Shown here: one piece after another, positions 41 through 39,124 of the stretch | Layout of the letters: every line of letters starts with the position of its first letter | How positions within the stretch are numbered: the first letter of the stretch is position 1 | Origin: a bacterium | GTDB taxonomy: Bacteria; Patescibacteriota; Gracilibacteria; Peribacterales; Peribacteraceae | Length of the DNA: 39,124 nucleotides | Assembly: GCA_027592135.1 (NCBI GenBank) | Contig: JAQCIJ010000007.1 | Location: 1-39,124 of the forward strand | Direction of reading: 5' to 3' | The notes under the pieces: generated by a model | The model's database searches: none | Told to the model about the DNA's origin: nothing | What the model saw: only the letters and a program-made list of their open reading frames with translations | Translations under genes and position numbers: made by a program

Positions 41-3000
41 TTAGCTGTTGTAGCTAGTAGACTTAACAGTTGTCTCTGGGTATTCAATCCAAAGGAACCT
101 AGCACCACTTGCGTAAGTGTTAGTTTGGTCCTTATCGAGCCACTGAACGTGTGATCGACCTGAGGCAGCTCCTTGTGCACCAAATGGTGTTGCAGAGATG
201 TCATCAAAGTTTTGAATAGTTACCTGGAGAACAGAAACACCACCATCTGTAGAAGCGGTGTTCGGGTTAGTGATATCTGCCTGAAGAACGAATGTAGCGT
301 CTGATCCTTCGTCAATTTCAGTATCGACTGTGGAAGCATCTAGTCCGACACATTCAACAAGAAGTGTTCCAGAAGCTACACCAACCATTGCAAGACCGGT
401 GTCTGCGTAGAAATCACTACACGTTACCGTCTTTGTTTGGTCGGCTTTGTTGTACATCTTGAATGTACCAGTGCTGATAGCTACGTTCGTAGCGTTAACA
501 TTGAACACAACACCAGAAAGTGTTACATCGTTATCTCCATTCTTCGAGTTGCCATGAGCGGCAGCTGACACCTTAAACTGTCCGATAGCAGAGATACCAG
601 TAGGTACTGATGTACCGTTAGCATCTGGGTTAGCGTTCGTAATAGAGGTGATCTTAGAAAGAACAGAGATGTTCTTGTTACCAGTGACAGTAGAGTTACT
701 GTTAGAGTTTGATGTTGCAGTTTCTGCACCAACAAAGATTTCTCCTTCAGCAGTACCATCTTGGTCACTCATAGTAAGGTCGTTTGACGACTCACCACCA
801 CGAGCTTGTACAACAATGTTGTTGTATGTCGCTGCACCAGAACCAATAAAGAGAGCGATGATTTGGTTGGATGTTCCACCCTGTTCATCAGTCTTCATTC
901 TTGGTCGGACGATAACATCGACGTCTGATCCGTCCGGAACAACAAGTTGCTGGTTTTCCATGTTTACACAGAATGTGGTTACTGAACCTGAACCAACTTG
1001 ATCCTGAGTAGTACCACCAGAGGTAGCCTGCTTAGGGTTGTGATCAAGCTTTGTATCAGATCCACAGCCACCCTTTGTTGCTTCTGCGAACTTTGTCGCT
1101 TCACCGTCACGGTAGAGCTCCAATCGGTCGATAGAAGTAGCGGTAGCACCAGATGATGTGAACTGAATGTCCGTTACATCGATAGATTCGTGCTCAGCGT
1201 GTAGCTCTAGACGAAGGATAGCTTCACCAAGACTTCCACCAAGCAGTTGACGGGAACGCAACGGCTGTGAGTCCTTTGTTACGAACAAGTCACCCTGACT
1301 TCGGAGAGTGAATAGCTCAGAATATACCGTTGTGGTAACAATGTCACAAGAAGTAGCTTCAACATGGTCAGAATCGCGACATGTTCCGTTTGTCTTGAGG
1401 TTACTCAAGTTAGAACCGTCATCAAGCTCTTCAGCCTCAATATACGTAATAGTGGAACCCGTGTCGAAACGGATTTCAAGGTCGTTATTTGTAAGACTAG
1501 AAGAAACGTCAGAGTGTACTTCGAATACGACAGTCTCTTCGGCAGGGATAACGTATCCACCACCAGCAAGGTCGTTAAAGCTAACCTGACTAGACTGTGA
1601 AGCAACACCGTCCTCGAGGATAGTGTCTACTACACCGTCTCCATCTGTATCAACCCATAGAGCGTAGTTCTGTCCATTGTTCAATGAACCAGAAGCAGAC
1701 GCGAATATAGCCTTCGTGAAGAGGATGTCCTCGGCTTCACCAGCACGAGCCTCGAATCGGAAGAGGTTGATGTTCTTCGCGTTCTCAACCGCTGTGTCAC
1801 CTGTACCAATTTCCTTAACAGAAACTGTAAGGGTAGCAGTAGCGATCTGGTGGAAGTTACCAGCGATGTTCCCACGAGGGCGAACGTCACCGACCTTGTC
1901 ACCAGTGGAAAGTCCTTCAATTTGCATTTGGTATGCAGTTGAAGAAGCGATAAGACCACCGAAAGTACATCCAGTTGCGTTGGTTGTTAGAGAACCAGCA
2001 GAAAGGATGTGGGTTGGTTCACCACAAATGTGAACGCGGAATTTATCACCGTTTAATGGGTGCTTATCTGCACCATTATCAATGAAGTCGACACGGAATT
2101 CCCACGTTTCGTCTCCACGAACAATGAAGTCATCAAAGCGATATACTTGGTATGTACCAGATCCTGTGCTGAGTTTAGCGTGTCCAGAATCTGTAGCACC
2201 TGTGAGACGCACACCATCGATCGTACGACCAGTAGCCTTGTTGCGGATTTCTACATCTTCAAGAACTTCCAGAATAGAGTCAGCAGTAGCGTCGGAACCA
2301 TCGAAAGTAAGACCAGCACTTGTCTGAGCCTGAACAAGAATGAAGAAGTCTTTTGTGTCGATGTCCTCACCACCAGTTTGGAAGGTGATGTTTGCAAGAA
2401 CAGCGTCGTTATCGTCACGGGTGTATTCCTCTTGAGCAGGTCCGTCGACACCGATAGTGAATTCACCAGCGTCGATAGAAACTGTGTCAGGAAGAGTGGC
2501 AGTCTCAGTAGGCAGAGAAATCTGTGAACCGTAGAGCTGTCCGTTTACACCGTAACCGTAGAGAGAACCAACCGCAAAGAGGTCAGATGACTCTTCGAAG
2601 TGAACGATGATTTGGTCTCCAGCACCACCAACAACGTCGGCGATAACCTCAAGAGTGATTTTGTCACCCTCAAGTACGGTGAATGGAGGATCGAATACAA
2701 CAGTAATAAAGTCACCAACAGTCTGTGAAACAGTGTTGGTAAGGATAGTACCGTCTGTTCGGCGTACTGCGATGTTTACGAAATCACCATCAGATGCAGA
2801 ACTGTTCTGCTCCAAAGTCATGGAGTAGAATGTCTGGTCTTCTGTTGAGTTCACAGAAACTTCGTACTTACCGATAACCACACCTACGTCACCAACCTCT
2901 ACTTCATCAGGAGAGACAGTTCGGTATGTCAAGCTAACGATACCACTTGTTACAGCAGCCATACGGAATGTATCACCGCGAAGTGGGAAGTTTCCAGCTA

Positions 3001-4369
3001 CAGACTGAGCGTTTCCGAATACATCGGAAGGAAGCTCAACAACAAGGTTGTGCTCAGCTGAAGTTTCAGCAGTTGAAGAGAAGTCCATCACGATGTCCAC
3101 TGTCACTGTCTCACATGGATCAAGGATCAATGGAGAAGAGAAGCGAAGATCAGATGTCTGGTCTTCAGAGTCGATTGTACGCTTACGTGTAACACGAGCG
3201 CCGTTTACCGCTGCGTAGATACCGTCGATGTCTATCTCATCACCGAATCCTTCGTGAAGGATCGTGAGGTTTTCAATAGCAACAGAGTCATCACAAGAAG
3301 CAGTGAAGTCTACAGAGAGACCTACTACACCAACAGCACCTTTAGGCACTGTGTCTCCTACTGGGTTAGAAGCACCAAGCGAAAGCTCAAGTGTTCCGTC
3401 TCCCTGTACGAAAGCGGTGTAACCTGTGAATCCAACACTGTCAGAGAAGACAGTGCCGTCTGCAGTCATAAGATCAGAAACTGAAAGCGTGTAGCTGTGG
3501 CTAGCATCCATTGCCACTCCGAGCGTGAGCTCAACAGTGCTTGTACCAAGAAGGTTAGCACTTGTAACAGCAACGTTAGCAGAGTTTGTCACTGTGTAGT
3601 TACTTGTGTCTTCTGCTGCAGATTGGTCAAGAGTCATGTTGAACTCAACCTCAAGTGTCGTAGAAGAAGTAGCAACTGCATCAGTCACCATAGGCTCGCC
3701 GCTTACACCGCCTGTACCACAGTCCACTCCGTAAGAGAGACCTTGGTCAACACGGTAAAGCATGACAACCATCTCAGCACGGTTCATGTTGTCACCAGGA
3801 CGAACACGGCCGGTAGAGTCGTCACCCTGAAGTACACAGTGATCAGCCGCAGTCTGAATGACATTGGTGTACCACTGTCCGCTTGGGTTGTCGACGAACT
3901 GAGAAGCGTCACCTGTTGGAGCAAGTCCAAAGGCGCGAGTGATAAGGGCAGCAGCTTCAGCGCGGTTAATGTTTGCGCCAGGACGAGAGTAGCAAGGGTG
4001 GCTGCCGTAGCAGTCGCCGTCACCACGTACCCATCCCTCTTTACCTGCTTCCTCAAAGTAACCGTAATACCAGGCAGAAGTCGAAACGTCATCGAAGCTT
4101 GCAACAGCTGGAGGAGTGGAAAGAATTCCACCGTTCAGCTCTACAACCAACTTAACGAATTCAGCACGGTTGGCAGGATTGCCACCGCGAAACCTGGCTT
4201 GTGTAGCATCGAGGTAACCTGCGTCAACGAAAGCGTTAACTGAGTCACCGTACCACACACCCGCTGGAACATCGTTGTAAGCCGCTAGCACTGTACCCAC
4301 TTGAGTAAGTGAAAGAGCTGCAACCGATACTCCTGCGAGGACCTTCTTCAATCGAAGAGAAAAGTCCAT
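41..4369 (-). CDS. Large secreted surface protein with three N-terminal SLH domains and a following Ig-like region
   Basis: ORF 41..4597; likely start at 4369 (MDFSLRLKKVLAGVSVAALSLTQVGTVLAAYNDVPAGVWYGDSV...), signal peptide then three SLH-like repeats (NRAEFVKLV, NRAEAAALI, NRAEMVVMLYR). Confidence 0.85.
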   Translation of the reverse strand: MDFSLRLKKVLAGVSVAALSLTQVGTVLAAYNDVPAGVWYGDSVNAFVDAGYLDATQARFRGGNPANRAEFVKLVVELNGGILSTPPAVASFDDVSTSAWYYGYFEEAGKEGWVRGDGDCYGSHPCYSRPGANINRAEAAALITRAFGLAPTGDASQFVDNPSGQWYTNVIQTAADHCVLQGDDSTGRVRPGDNMNRAEMVVMLYRVDQGLSYGVDCGTGGVSGEPMVTDAVATSSTTLEVEFNMTLDQSAAEDTSNYTVTNSANVAVTSANLLGTSTVELTLGVAMDASHSYTLSVSDLMTADGTVFSDSVGFTGYTAFVQGDGTLELSLGASNPVGDTVPKGAVGVVGLSVDFTASCDDSVAIENLTILHEGFGDEIDIDGIYAAVNGARVTRKRTIDSEDQTSDLRFSSPLILDPCETVTVDIVMDFSSTAETSAEHNLVVELPSDVFGNAQSVAGNFPLRGDTFRMAAVTSGIVSLTYRTVSPDEVEVGDVGVVIGKYEVSVNSTEDQTFYSMTLEQNSSASDGDFVNIAVRRTDGTILTNTVSQTVGDFITVVFDPPFTVLEGDKITLEVIADVVGGAGDQIIVHFEESSDLFAVGSLYGYGVNGQLYGSQISLPTETATLPDTVSIDAGEFTIGVDGPAQEEYTRDDNDAVLANITFQTGGEDIDTKDFFILVQAQTSAGLTFDGSDATADSILEVLEDVEIRNKATGRTIDGVRLTGATDSGHAKLSTGSGTYQVYRFDDFIVRGDETWEFRVDFIDNGADKHPLNGDKFRVHICGEPTHILSAGSLTTNATGCTFGGLIASSTAYQMQIEGLSTGDKVGDVRPRGNIAGNFHQIATATLTVSVKEIGTGDTAVENAKNINLFRFEARAGEAEDILFTKAIFASASGSLNNGQNYALWVDTDGDGVVDTILEDGVASQSSQVSFNDLAGGGYVIPAEETVVFEVHSDVSSSLTNNDLEIRFDTGSTITYIEAEELDDGSNLSNLKTNGTCRDSDHVEATSCDIVTTTVYSELFTLRSQGDLFVTKDSQPLRSRQLLGGSLGEAILRLELHAEHESIDVTDIQFTSSGATATSIDRLELYRDGEATKFAEATKGGCGSDTKLDHNPKQATSGGTTQDQVGSGSVTTFCVNMENQQLVVPDGSDVDVIVRPRMKTDEQGGTSNQIIALFIGSGAATYNNIVVQARGGESSNDLTMSDQDGTAEGEIFVGAETATSNSNSNSTVTGNKNISVLSKITSITNANPDANGTSVPTGISAIGQFKVSAAAHGNSKNGDNDVTLSGVVFNVNATNVAISTGTFKMYNKADQTKTVTCSDFYADTGLAMVGVASGTLLVECVGLDASTVDTEIDEGSDATFVLQADITNPNTASTDGGVSVLQVTIQNFDDISATPFGAQGAASGRSHVQWLDKDQTNTYASGARFLWIEYPETTVKSTSYNS

Positions 4370-4620
4370 AAGAATAAGGTGTAAAGAAAAATAAAAGACT
4401 ATATAAGGAAGTATGTTTGAAAGATCTCTAACAATCTTTGCCCTTGTGAGGAGAGAACGAACTAGCGCTACTCTTCTCCTTATATATAAAGAGAGCACAC
4501 GAGCTTTGTAAAAATTGTTATAATGAAATATATCAAATATACAGAAAGCACGACGCAACAACTGCGTGTGAGAAACTTGTCTTTGAAGTAAAGGCAAGGT
4601 GCCGATGCGTAAAGGAGCGT

Positions 4621-34912: not shown

Positions 34913-37900
34913 CTACCTTCCAGTAGAGTTAGGTGCCGTTTGATAGGATACAGAAACCTCTCCTTCTCCAAGGTATGTCTCGATCGCTATGAGCATTGCT
35001 ATATAACCATCTTCTGTAAGATAACGAACGTAATCGTCATGCTTCAAGTCTCGAAAATTAACACCAGGATTCAATATAGAATATTTTGCTTTAAATTCAT
35101 CCAGTGGAATTCTGGTGCCTTCAGAACTTAGGGCAGCCGCTTTAAATGTTCTACACGCCTCGACAAAATTTCCGCCATTCATCAGTATCCAGTTCTCTAC
35201 TCCAATTCCCCCAAACCCTCCATTTTCTACTTTTTTGTATGCCTTTCCATCTTTTAGTATTTGCTTTGCAAGCAGAATGTTCGCCCTTGTCTCTAGATAC
35301 ACCTCTTCACCATGATGACGACGAATATGTTCAAATCGTGCTTCCACTGCTTCATGTGATGGTATGTAATTAATCTCAGAATTCGGCATGATAGCAATAT
35401 CGACATCGACAGACTTTCCATTAATCATGCAATCTGTAATACGAATTTGAAAGCCGTCATCGCGAAGAGGATGCGACTCTGCACTACCTCCAAGTGCATC
35501 GCCAAAAGATGTATCAATTTGCTTTACCTTCTCAAAGTCAGAATGCTCACCACTATCATCTATACGTAATGTATAGTCAAAATCATATCCTCCACCTGGA
35601 AGATACGTACCGCGTCCAGTAGAACCAATATCAAACAAGCGAGCACCGCCTAAGCTGTGATCTAGCGGATTCTTCATCTCTACACCAAATGTAGCGAGTT
35701 GTGTTTCAATTGTTGTTTGCACGGATGCTCCAATAGCATTGGTTTCAGGATCTCCAGCACGTAATACCGTTACATATTGATCGATATTTGCTGAATGCTT
35801 CGCAAACAATTCAGGACTTGTATTAGCATCTATTATCGCCATATCAAAAGCAGCACCATTACGAGCATCGAGCCCTACAAAGTTTCGACGCATAGTGTCA
35901 AATTGTTCAGCAGTAAAAACAAGTTTTCCATCTTCATTAAAAATAGGGATATATACTCCATGCTCAACAATATCGATGTATATCGTCGCCATTTCTCTTG
36001 GGTCTGTAAGCGTTTGAGAGAATACGACAAGTCCATCTATTTCTGACGAGGGTAGTCCAGTGCGAATCCCAAAATGAGAATCATTTACATAGGGTGTATG
36101 GAATGTTTCGTATCCTCCCTCTACGCGCATAGGACTTTCGCCATCCATATTTCTCGATAGATCAAATTGTCCTCTATTACGAGAAAGAAAAAGAACGTGT
36201 CCATGACTATTTGCATACAAAGTTGCAGGCGATCGAGATAATGGTGTTTCTAGCCTATCGGTTGATAGGTGACTTGATAGTACACGTCCGAAATCTACGT
36301 CGAACGGAGTGAAATCAGAATCTGCGTCCTTTGCACCAAGCATTTCTCCACAGGTTAATCCTCGTGACAATATCCCTCCTAAATATTGAGCATCGGCACC
36401 GTGCATCATATCACCCTCACTCAACTCTAACGATGATTCACCTGTAAACCCAGAAGCAAAATCTCGATTTCTGGTATCTGCTTCAGTACGAGCAGTGTTC
36501 ATCATATCAATAGCCTCTTGCACCGTGTTAATCCCCAAAGGACGAAGGAATATTTGAGCAAGTCTATCGGTTGCAGTTTGCTGGCCTTCAGCCCCCAGTG
36601 ATTCTCGTAAGCTCCTAATTCTTTGCTCGATAAGAGCAGGGTTTGCTTGTGCTTCATAGCCTTGACGCTGCCCCAAACGAGAATGGCCAAGTAATGTTTC
36701 AAGTTTTAATAGGCCAAAATGTAATACCTCTTGTTGTTGTGCGGTAAGAGTGTTCACTCCATCGCGTTCTGCCACTAGTAACAACTCTTCTATCCCAGAT
36801 GAAGACTCCAAAAACTCTCTTAACGAGTTTTCCCCAGAACGAACATGAATAAGCATAAGATCTCGTATCATCAGATCCTGTACCCTTCTTGCAGACCGTT
36901 GCTTGCTACTAGTACTAGTATCACCCCTTTCCGTTAACTGCAAAATCTCTGGAGAGGTTCTATCATACACCTCATGATAAATCCTACTTGCAGGATAAAG
37001 CACCTGAAATGCTACCGCAATTTTTGCTGCTATCGGTAAATTATTCTTCTCAAATACCGAAGCAATCTTTTGGTATGCTGCCAATGGCTTATCCAAGTTA
37101 ATAAGCTGCATCGCTAATTGCTCATCTAAAAAGCGTAACTCTGAAGAAGGGCTATGACTCAAGCTTTTAAAAATAGTGACAAAATCCATCCTTTTGGAAG
37201 GATTACATTCAATAATTAAGTTAAGATACTTCAAAGTAAATTTACGTTCAGTTTCGCTAAGATCTACAAGTGTATTTTCAAAGTTAGCCTTGGCAATTTT
37301 AAGAAGCACATCTCTCTGTGTAATAATATGAAAGTCTAGACCTGCATTATGTAGTGTAGTAGCAGCTCTTAGCACTAGGGCATCATCCCCTGTTGAGTAA
37401 TCTGTAGAGGATATTATCTCTACATCACGAAGCCTCATAGAATAACCTGCATTCTCGCTAAGCATGCGAACAGTGGTACGTAATTGAGGATTGTCTTCTG
37501 TGAATTGAGAACGAAAATCTGCATCAGATAGATATTGCCTTACGCCCTCAAGCTGTTCTTGCTCATCACGATAAAATTCTTTATCATTCATGTTTTCTGT
37601 ATCACTGCGAGCTATAATAGAAAGAGTAGACGGTTTGATTTCGAATCCATACTGCGTACTAAGAACATCAAGCTGTGCAGCCAGTTCTGGGTATTTAGCC
37701 TGGAGCGTAAAAACTATTTCCCAGCAATCCTTCGATCCTGCACCATGCCACGTTTTTCTACTACTTCCACCAAAGTAGTGCCGTGCAATGTGCGCTCCTT
37801 CTCCATTAAGAATTCGAGTTCTCATTTCTCGGTCTCTCCAAAGCGGTGCAAGTTCCTTATGCAAAACATGCGTATTTATGCCAAGTGAATACTCTTGAAC

Positions 37901-39019
37901 AAGATGATTGCAAAAACTACGAAACTCGCTGTCTTGCATTAATACTAACAAACTGGTGTCCGAAACGACTAAACCAGCATCAGAACCCCCTGTAGAAAGT
38001 TCCCTGTTGAGCGACTGTGAAAAACCAAAGGTTTCTGCAAATTCCTCTATGACATTCCAGTTATCCGTACTGGTATACATATCTACAAAAGTCTCTAAAC
38101 CTCGATCGGAGAATGATTGCTGACCTCCACGAACTACCCTCAATGCTGCAGCCCGTAGTGACGCATTGCTTACGAGCAAAGAATGAGGGGGTTTTCTTAG
38201 CGAAAACTCTATAGAGCTAATTTCAACCCCCTTGAGAGATGAGCAAATTTCTAGGATATCTCTTACAGCAGTGATATCTAAATCTCCTAGAATGAATATT
38301 TTGTCCAATTCCACTAAAGATTGGAAACCACCATTGGGCTGAGTGGTAAAAAGAAAGTCAAGAACATCGGGGTTACTCGCCACACTTAAGTACATATACA
38401 AGCTTCCAAACGATGGATTTTTACCTATATGTCTTGCTATACGCTTTATGTCATTGCTATGTATTTTTAATTCTGCCAATTGATCCATAGCAAAGAATAC
38501 CTGCCCAAAATCCCTTCCTCCAGACATTTCTGGTTCCTGCTCTTGAAATAGATCAAGAAATTCTTCTGCCTGTGGACGACGTAATAATCCAGAGATAAAA
38601 ATAGCGTATTCCCCAAAGTCTTCCGCCGTTAAATCAAGACCAGCAGCTCTACACTTCTTAAAAAGTTCTATAGGATTTTTTATATCCTTAGAAGCTCTAG
38701 CCAAGATTCTCTGAGCATGTGGAGCGACACGCATAGGCTTCTGCCCTATAAGGGTGACTGATTTTTCTCCGTACTTATCTGCTTGTACTTGAATATCTAC
38801 GTACCCTTCAGATTGCATCTCCTGAGTCCTGCTCTCTACCTCATTAGCATCTACAGTTGCTCGTTTTTCTTGAACAATATTCGATTCTAGATAATCGAGC
38901 ATTTTTTCAAATTCTTCCACGCGTGCATCAGAATCAAGTAGAGCTCGTGCTTCTGGAGAAACGCGTTCTACAGGTGGTGCTTTGGGGGGGGGGTTTTTGT
39001 GACTAATCTTCGCATCCAA
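34913..39019 (-). CDS. Giant multidomain protein with C-terminal class I CCA/OAS-like nucleotidyltransferase region
   Basis: GSTGRGTYLPGGGYDFDYTLRIDD (GS...DxD), third acidic motif SVDVDIAIMP, and ANILLAKQILKDGKAYKKVENGGFGGIGVENWILMNGGNF resembling archaeal CCA-adding enzymes. N-terminus uncertain because of the C10 tract. Confidence 0.8.
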   Translation of the reverse strand: MDAKISHKNPPPKAPPVERVSPEARALLDSDARVEEFEKMLDYLESNIVQEKRATVDANEVESRTQEMQSEGYVDIQVQADKYGEKSVTLIGQKPMRVAPHAQRILARASKDIKNPIELFKKCRAAGLDLTAEDFGEYAIFISGLLRRPQAEEFLDLFQEQEPEMSGGRDFGQVFFAMDQLAELKIHSNDIKRIARHIGKNPSFGSLYMYLSVASNPDVLDFLFTTQPNGGFQSLVELDKIFILGDLDITAVRDILEICSSLKGVEISSIEFSLRKPPHSLLVSNASLRAAALRVVRGGQQSFSDRGLETFVDMYTSTDNWNVIEEFAETFGFSQSLNRELSTGGSDAGLVVSDTSLLVLMQDSEFRSFCNHLVQEYSLGINTHVLHKELAPLWRDREMRTRILNGEGAHIARHYFGGSSRKTWHGAGSKDCWEIVFTLQAKYPELAAQLDVLSTQYGFEIKPSTLSIIARSDTENMNDKEFYRDEQEQLEGVRQYLSDADFRSQFTEDNPQLRTTVRMLSENAGYSMRLRDVEIISSTDYSTGDDALVLRAATTLHNAGLDFHIITQRDVLLKIAKANFENTLVDLSETERKFTLKYLNLIIECNPSKRMDFVTIFKSLSHSPSSELRFLDEQLAMQLINLDKPLAAYQKIASVFEKNNLPIAAKIAVAFQVLYPASRIYHEVYDRTSPEILQLTERGDTSTSSKQRSARRVQDLMIRDLMLIHVRSGENSLREFLESSSGIEELLLVAERDGVNTLTAQQQEVLHFGLLKLETLLGHSRLGQRQGYEAQANPALIEQRIRSLRESLGAEGQQTATDRLAQIFLRPLGINTVQEAIDMMNTARTEADTRNRDFASGFTGESSLELSEGDMMHGADAQYLGGILSRGLTCGEMLGAKDADSDFTPFDVDFGRVLSSHLSTDRLETPLSRSPATLYANSHGHVLFLSRNRGQFDLSRNMDGESPMRVEGGYETFHTPYVNDSHFGIRTGLPSSEIDGLVVFSQTLTDPREMATIYIDIVEHGVYIPIFNEDGKLVFTAEQFDTMRRNFVGLDARNGAAFDMAIIDANTSPELFAKHSANIDQYVTVLRAGDPETNAIGASVQTTIETQLATFGVEMKNPLDHSLGGARLFDIGSTGRGTYLPGGGYDFDYTLRIDDSGEHSDFEKVKQIDTSFGDALGGSAESHPLRDDGFQIRITDCMINGKSVDVDIAIMPNSEINYIPSHEAVEARFEHIRRHHGEEVYLETRANILLAKQILKDGKAYKKVENGGFGGIGVENWILMNGGNFVEACRTFKAAALSSEGTRIPLDEFKAKYSILNPGVNFRDLKHDDYVRYLTEDGYIAMLIAIETYLGEGEVSVSYQTAPNSTGR
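38984..38993. repeat. G10 homopolymer tract in the 5' coding region
   Basis: tttggggggggggttttt; C10 on the coding strand. Confidence 0.95.
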
Positions 39020-39124
39020 CCCATAAATTTTCCAGGCATTCCTGCAAGTCCTGTCTCTAATAGTAGGTCTGCTTCTGCTCGTGAGAAAAACGGTTTACCA
39101 TCACTATCTTTAGCCATCAGAATT

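Follow-up and report, generated by a model that had tools for sequence, protein, structure and literature searches.

The window analysed here, 39,124 bases long, makes up the whole of contig C13, one of 54 in a draft genome. Near its right end the minus strand carries a homopolymer of exactly ten C (38984..38993), which comprises three CCC proline codons and one additional C. Upstream of it lies a coding fragment (38994..39123, minus strand) that ends in a proline-rich linker. Downstream follows an ORF (34913..38983, minus strand) of about 1355 residues past the tract, in which a long, probably helical region precedes several conserved domains. Entering from the right, the upstream phase translates as ILMAKDSDGKPFFSRAEADLLLETGLAGMPGKFMGWMRRLVTKTPPPKHHL*; with C10 as assembled this translation stops four residues past the prolines (PPPKHHL*). 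The downstream ORF, 1368 aa in all, opens in another phase at TTG 39019. A tract longer by one base or shorter by two than C10 would join the upstream and downstream frames. A preliminary description of this DNA had stated that the C10 tract splits the frame, that C11 would restore it and that C10 ends in PPPKHHL*. Counting and translation reproduced each of these statements: there are ten C, and the phase differs on either side of them.

Both flanks were then scored by codon log-odds trained on the ORFs of the window. The 131 upstream bases gave +13.8 bits in the MAKDSDG phase and -38 and -23 bits in the other two; for comparison, the median of true coding windows this long is 9.9 bits (5-95%: 1.6-16.8). 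Directly downstream of the tract, the phase of the 1368-aa ORF scored +19.2 bits, and no other damage was seen along its 1368 codons. Thus, both flanks are coding, in different phases, and the switch occurs at the tract.

Relatives of this gene are few. A search with a profile built from two of them found it in 3 of the 74 genomes of the family and in none of the four congeners. For a comparison of tract lengths the viral contigs contained no relative and the genome contigs one distant locus; the only named relative is a contig of a Patescibacteria MAG (L004), of the same length and with the same protein as G093:C24 and apparently identical to it. The protein of G093 has about 3079 aa from stop to stop and aligns with the window from its residue 1759 onward (31% identity). 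That of G089 has at least 1758 aa, is open at the contig start and aligns from residue 415 onward (38.9% identity). Accordingly, the homologues extend upstream by about 1758 and at least 414 residues, respectively. Both proteins are uninterrupted across the position equivalent to the tract. The 43 residues encoded upstream of it match the preceding segment in both: FSRAEADLLLETGLAG aligned with FTREQALELLRMGVCG in G089, where within the linker 1 of 500 shuffles did equally well, and in G093 with SRADDSYL...MDAGLVG (9 of 500 shuffles). The two wrong phases of the upstream piece had no match in these linker segments. With the whole G089 protein as the target the best local match of the short piece fell elsewhere, therefore the support for the upstream match rests on colinearity; strong homology sets in about 44 residues past the motif in the window and 45 past it in G089. 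Because the codon phases differ and the relatives read through, the 1368-aa ORF is truly severed from upstream coding sequence. Codon usage as well as two relatives thus back the joined frame of the preliminary description. A remnant of the upstream 'LKMI...SRKDAL..AKEQMDAGLI' module, broken by TAA, is located downstream of the giant gene in G093:C24 (23889-24125, L031); it is possibly a decayed duplicate.

The same alignments bear on where the gene begins. With C10 as assembled, the 1368-aa ORF has no start upstream of the tract other than the TTG (39017..39019, minus strand). As the opening of an ORF this earlier observation is correct, and the phase is closed further upstream. Yet homology to the relatives sets in only at residues 20-23, i.e. 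downstream of the tract, and judged from the sequence the TTG is probably not a genuine start. No stop interrupts the upstream frame before the contig runs out (39124), so MAKDSDG is merely the first visible Met and the true start of the fragment is outside the contig. The placement of the tract at the N-terminus, near the start of a gene, therefore had to be abandoned: the contig ends 131 bases upstream, and the relatives locate this spot in mid-protein. Going by these alignments, the tract occupies an interdomain, proline-rich linker of a giant multi-domain protein, a tolerant site for such a tract. Searches of the same genome with the upstream DNA, the upstream peptide, the N-terminal half of the G093 protein and a scaffold profile did not recover the 5' part of the gene, nor did the 3-kb ends on both sides of the contigs yield a join. 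The right end of C26, 451 aa running off the contig, was considered as the 5' part and rejected, as it has no similarity to the family.

No other homopolymer found in the 1.12-Mb draft genome is as long as the C10 tract. All other C/G runs found were at most 8 and A/T runs at most 9 bases long; hence, with a single C/G run above 8 and no A/T run above 9, the genome was not enriched in long tracts. Markov models of order 1-5, from which the tract itself was left out, predicted 0.0004-0.013 C/G runs of at least 10 for the window and 0.01-0.37 for the genome. The tract is more than chance. CCC is the rarest proline codon in the window (43 of 380), so three consecutive CCC are not expected from protein selection alone. 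At the equivalent spot no C tract was present in G089 or G093, which are only 39% and 31% identical; proline runs of G093 lie about 150 residues further upstream, and its proline runs and linkers use mixed codons. C runs of nine or longer occurred in 62 of the 74 family genomes, and among the 30 of these genomes that were inspected they showed no consistent pattern of split frames. C/G runs at extreme contig ends of other genomes of the family (G080:C44, 11-52; G081:C43, from base 1) look like artefacts of sequencing rather than biology.

The part that the frame change cuts off consists of the long region, a shared segment and a C-terminal domain. By BLAST, residues 613-1065 (35825..37183, minus strand) recur in giant proteins from other families of the class (G228 and G303), which are different in the rest of their sequence. 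The end of this region (MHGADAQYLGGILSRGL ... SSEID) is possibly ADP-ribosyltransferase-like, a guess from the motif only; a structure model of the candidate region was unusable (pLDDT 34). Residues 1085-1368 (34916..35767, minus strand) form a C-terminal nucleotidyltransferase-like domain with the motifs DIGSTGRGT..DFDYTL and DVDIAI. It has the GS motif (DIGSTGRGT) and three catalytic acidic residues (D1146/D1148 and D1207). Pfam gave no hit for the copy in the window; a tandem copy in G089 passed the cut-off of NTP_transf_2 (PF01909) with an E-value of 6.8e-5. With a view to a Pol-beta-like fold, a moderate-confidence model of the domain (pLDDT 63) was compared with known structures; its best matches, Cid1, NF90 and OAS, were weak, with E around 1e-3 and TM below 0.3. 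The label 'NTase-like', assigned earlier, is supported by the GS-x4-GT...DxD...DVDIA motif, by the NTP_transf_2 match of the relative and by the weak resemblance of the model to Cid1/OAS. With the nucleotidyltransferase superfamily (NTP_transf_2/OAS/Cid1) the domain shares the GS-x4-GT motif, the DxD and the strand with the third Asp; unlike its members it is fused to the C-terminus of a giant protein of the Patescibacteria type. The giant ORF of G089 (L038, G089:C26, 1-5274) carries a tandem pair of nucleotidyltransferase-like domains, of which the contig start truncates the first. A common giant-protein scaffold with hydrophobic, membrane-like segments was seen in L026 (G000:C26, 730-6627), in L051 (G011:C12) and in the N-terminal half of L039; the giant proteins of C26 and G011 contain HD-like motifs. 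The scaffold appears to be modular, with swapped C-terminal enzyme domains, and the giant protein is possibly membrane-anchored.

How did the frames come to differ? On general grounds slipped-strand mispairing is expected at a C10 tract. It would alter the length of the run in the linker between the upstream module and the 1355-residue C-terminal part. The assembled allele, being out of frame, would yield a short product ending at PPPKHHL* and lacking about 1355 residues; lengths of +1 or -2 relative to C10 would yield the full-length protein. The gene would then alternate between two products, one full-length and one short that lacks the C-terminal part; given its position in the proline linker, slippage would add or remove the part that includes the nucleotidyltransferase domain. 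The tract, the frame change, the coding sequence on both sides and the uninterrupted homologues are seen directly; a tract length that is real in cells, its reversible variation and the production of the short form are inferred. In favor of slippage, the tract sits exactly at the change of coding phase and the downstream frame is otherwise intact; the continuity of both relatives across the spot, the record length of the run and its threefold use of a rare codon likewise count for it. In Neisseria, homopolymers of at least 8 were mostly found to be variable, and G/C runs dominate the strong candidates for phase variation (PMC5084427). The tract of the window, a homopolymer of at least 8 inside an ORF, has the property of a contingency locus that a change in length shifts the frame, here at a change of coding phase. 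Several points speak against a switch. The tract is 131 bases from a contig end, where an assembly is least trustworthy. Genomes with phase variation usually have several tracts and here there is one; switches are usually close to gene starts and this tract is in mid-gene. The absence of a C tract from G089 and G093 and the frequency of long C runs across the family, with no consistent splitting of frames, also weigh against it. We consider real length heterogeneity by slippage in the cell the leading explanation, at somewhat short of even chances. The more specific proposal, architecture phase variation in which a reversible poly-C switch in mid-gene decides whether the giant protein carries its C-terminal nucleotidyltransferase part, is rather doubtful.

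A one-base error in assembly or sequencing is nearly as likely as an on/off switch. The true tract length would then be in frame and the gene an ordinary, uninterrupted giant gene, which is a serious possibility although not the favored one. This is a single draft genome with the contig end close by; indel errors arise most often in homopolymers, both relatives have the joined frame and the rest of the ORF is intact. Conversely, unsystematic inspection of the window turned up no second frameshift, and the contig ends point to a kind of assembly in which a C10 is usually called by majority. For many contigs exactly 69-71 or 98 terminal bases are found again elsewhere, and end-to-end overlaps of about 99-159 bases with 1-3 mismatches connect C21R/C30L, C15R/C17R, C3L/C32R, C10R/C23R and C37R/C41L (G000). 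This suggests a short-read de Bruijn assembly with k of about 70 and 100, broken by some strain variation. From the tract start to the contig end (38984-39124) are exactly 141 bases, a number that is also the highest k used by default in a common assembler. A de Bruijn branch at k=141 caused by length variants was rejected, because 69-71 and 98 bases, not 141, are the lengths at which overlaps between contig ends cluster; since the overlaps of the assembly show other k values, the distance is probably a coincidence.

The remaining explanations carry less weight. A real but non-reversible recent slip may have split the gene, its C-terminal part being lost or decaying. The gene may be dispensable because it is patchy (3 of 74 family genomes, none of the 4 congeners), which fits such a loss; but the 1368 codons are still open, with normal codon usage just past the tract, so a fixed frameshift would have to be very recent, and we regard it as unlikely. 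Still less probable is that RNA polymerase slips on C10 and restores the frame in some transcripts, by which one DNA length would give both products. This is documented for homopolymer frameshifts in the reduced genomes of endosymbionts (PMC3017870), where, however, the known cases are A/T tracts. The least probable reading is that of two genuine, separate genes, an independent one being followed by that of the 1368-aa protein, which would start from TTG 39019 or an internal ATG. The ORF from the TTG does exist, but similarity to the relatives is absent before residue 20, the relatives are fused across this point and the start would fall inside the upstream coding sequence of another phase. 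Overall, the locus as assembled has its frame broken at a tract prone to slippage, in a giant gene of patchy distribution; that it belongs to a contingency system is plausible but unproven.

Slippage within the cell, if it takes place here, has counterparts elsewhere. As in the G/C contingency genes of Neisseria and Campylobacter, a C/G run of at least 8 lies inside an ORF and a change by one base toggles the frame; in contrast, here a single mid-gene locus of an uncultured small-genome bacterium is concerned, the tract is not conserved and it is known from one assembled length. The frameshifts that transcriptional slippage corrects in Blochmannia and Buchnera (PMC3017870) similarly combine an otherwise intact ORF, one homopolymer frameshift and a reduced genome, yet there the tracts are poly-A/T in AT-rich genomes and some of the frameshifts are conserved, whereas here poly-C is present in one genome. 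In Gracilibacterium BD1-5 a hypervariable Pro-Thr-Asp repeat gene with 9-mer repeats was documented from reads to vary while keeping its frame (PMC6851277). Like the locus described here, that CPR gene has a proline-coding region prone to repeats and linked with assembly breakage; the mononucleotide run of the window shifts the frame and is known from an assembly alone. In Vampirococcus giant proteins were inferred to mediate host attachment (PMC8080830). We found no report of homopolymeric phase variation for a Patescibacteria-like group. If real, the switch would be an example of it in a candidate-phylum symbiont or epibiont, and one that adds or removes the enzymatic part of a giant protein rather than silencing the gene. 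Otherwise, the locus illustrates how, in giant genes, a spurious 'N-terminus' and a spurious 'TTG start' can arise from a contig end together with the call of one base.

Two further contig ends may be mentioned. Near the opposite end of the window (41-4597, minus strand) is an ORF of 1518 aa that starts with TTG and contains an S-layer homology domain. At the right end of contig C53 of G000 an 866-aa open frame runs into a tandem (TPPNTPAAQGQ)n repeat, which is reminiscent of the proline-repeat hypervariable genes in CPR bacteria.
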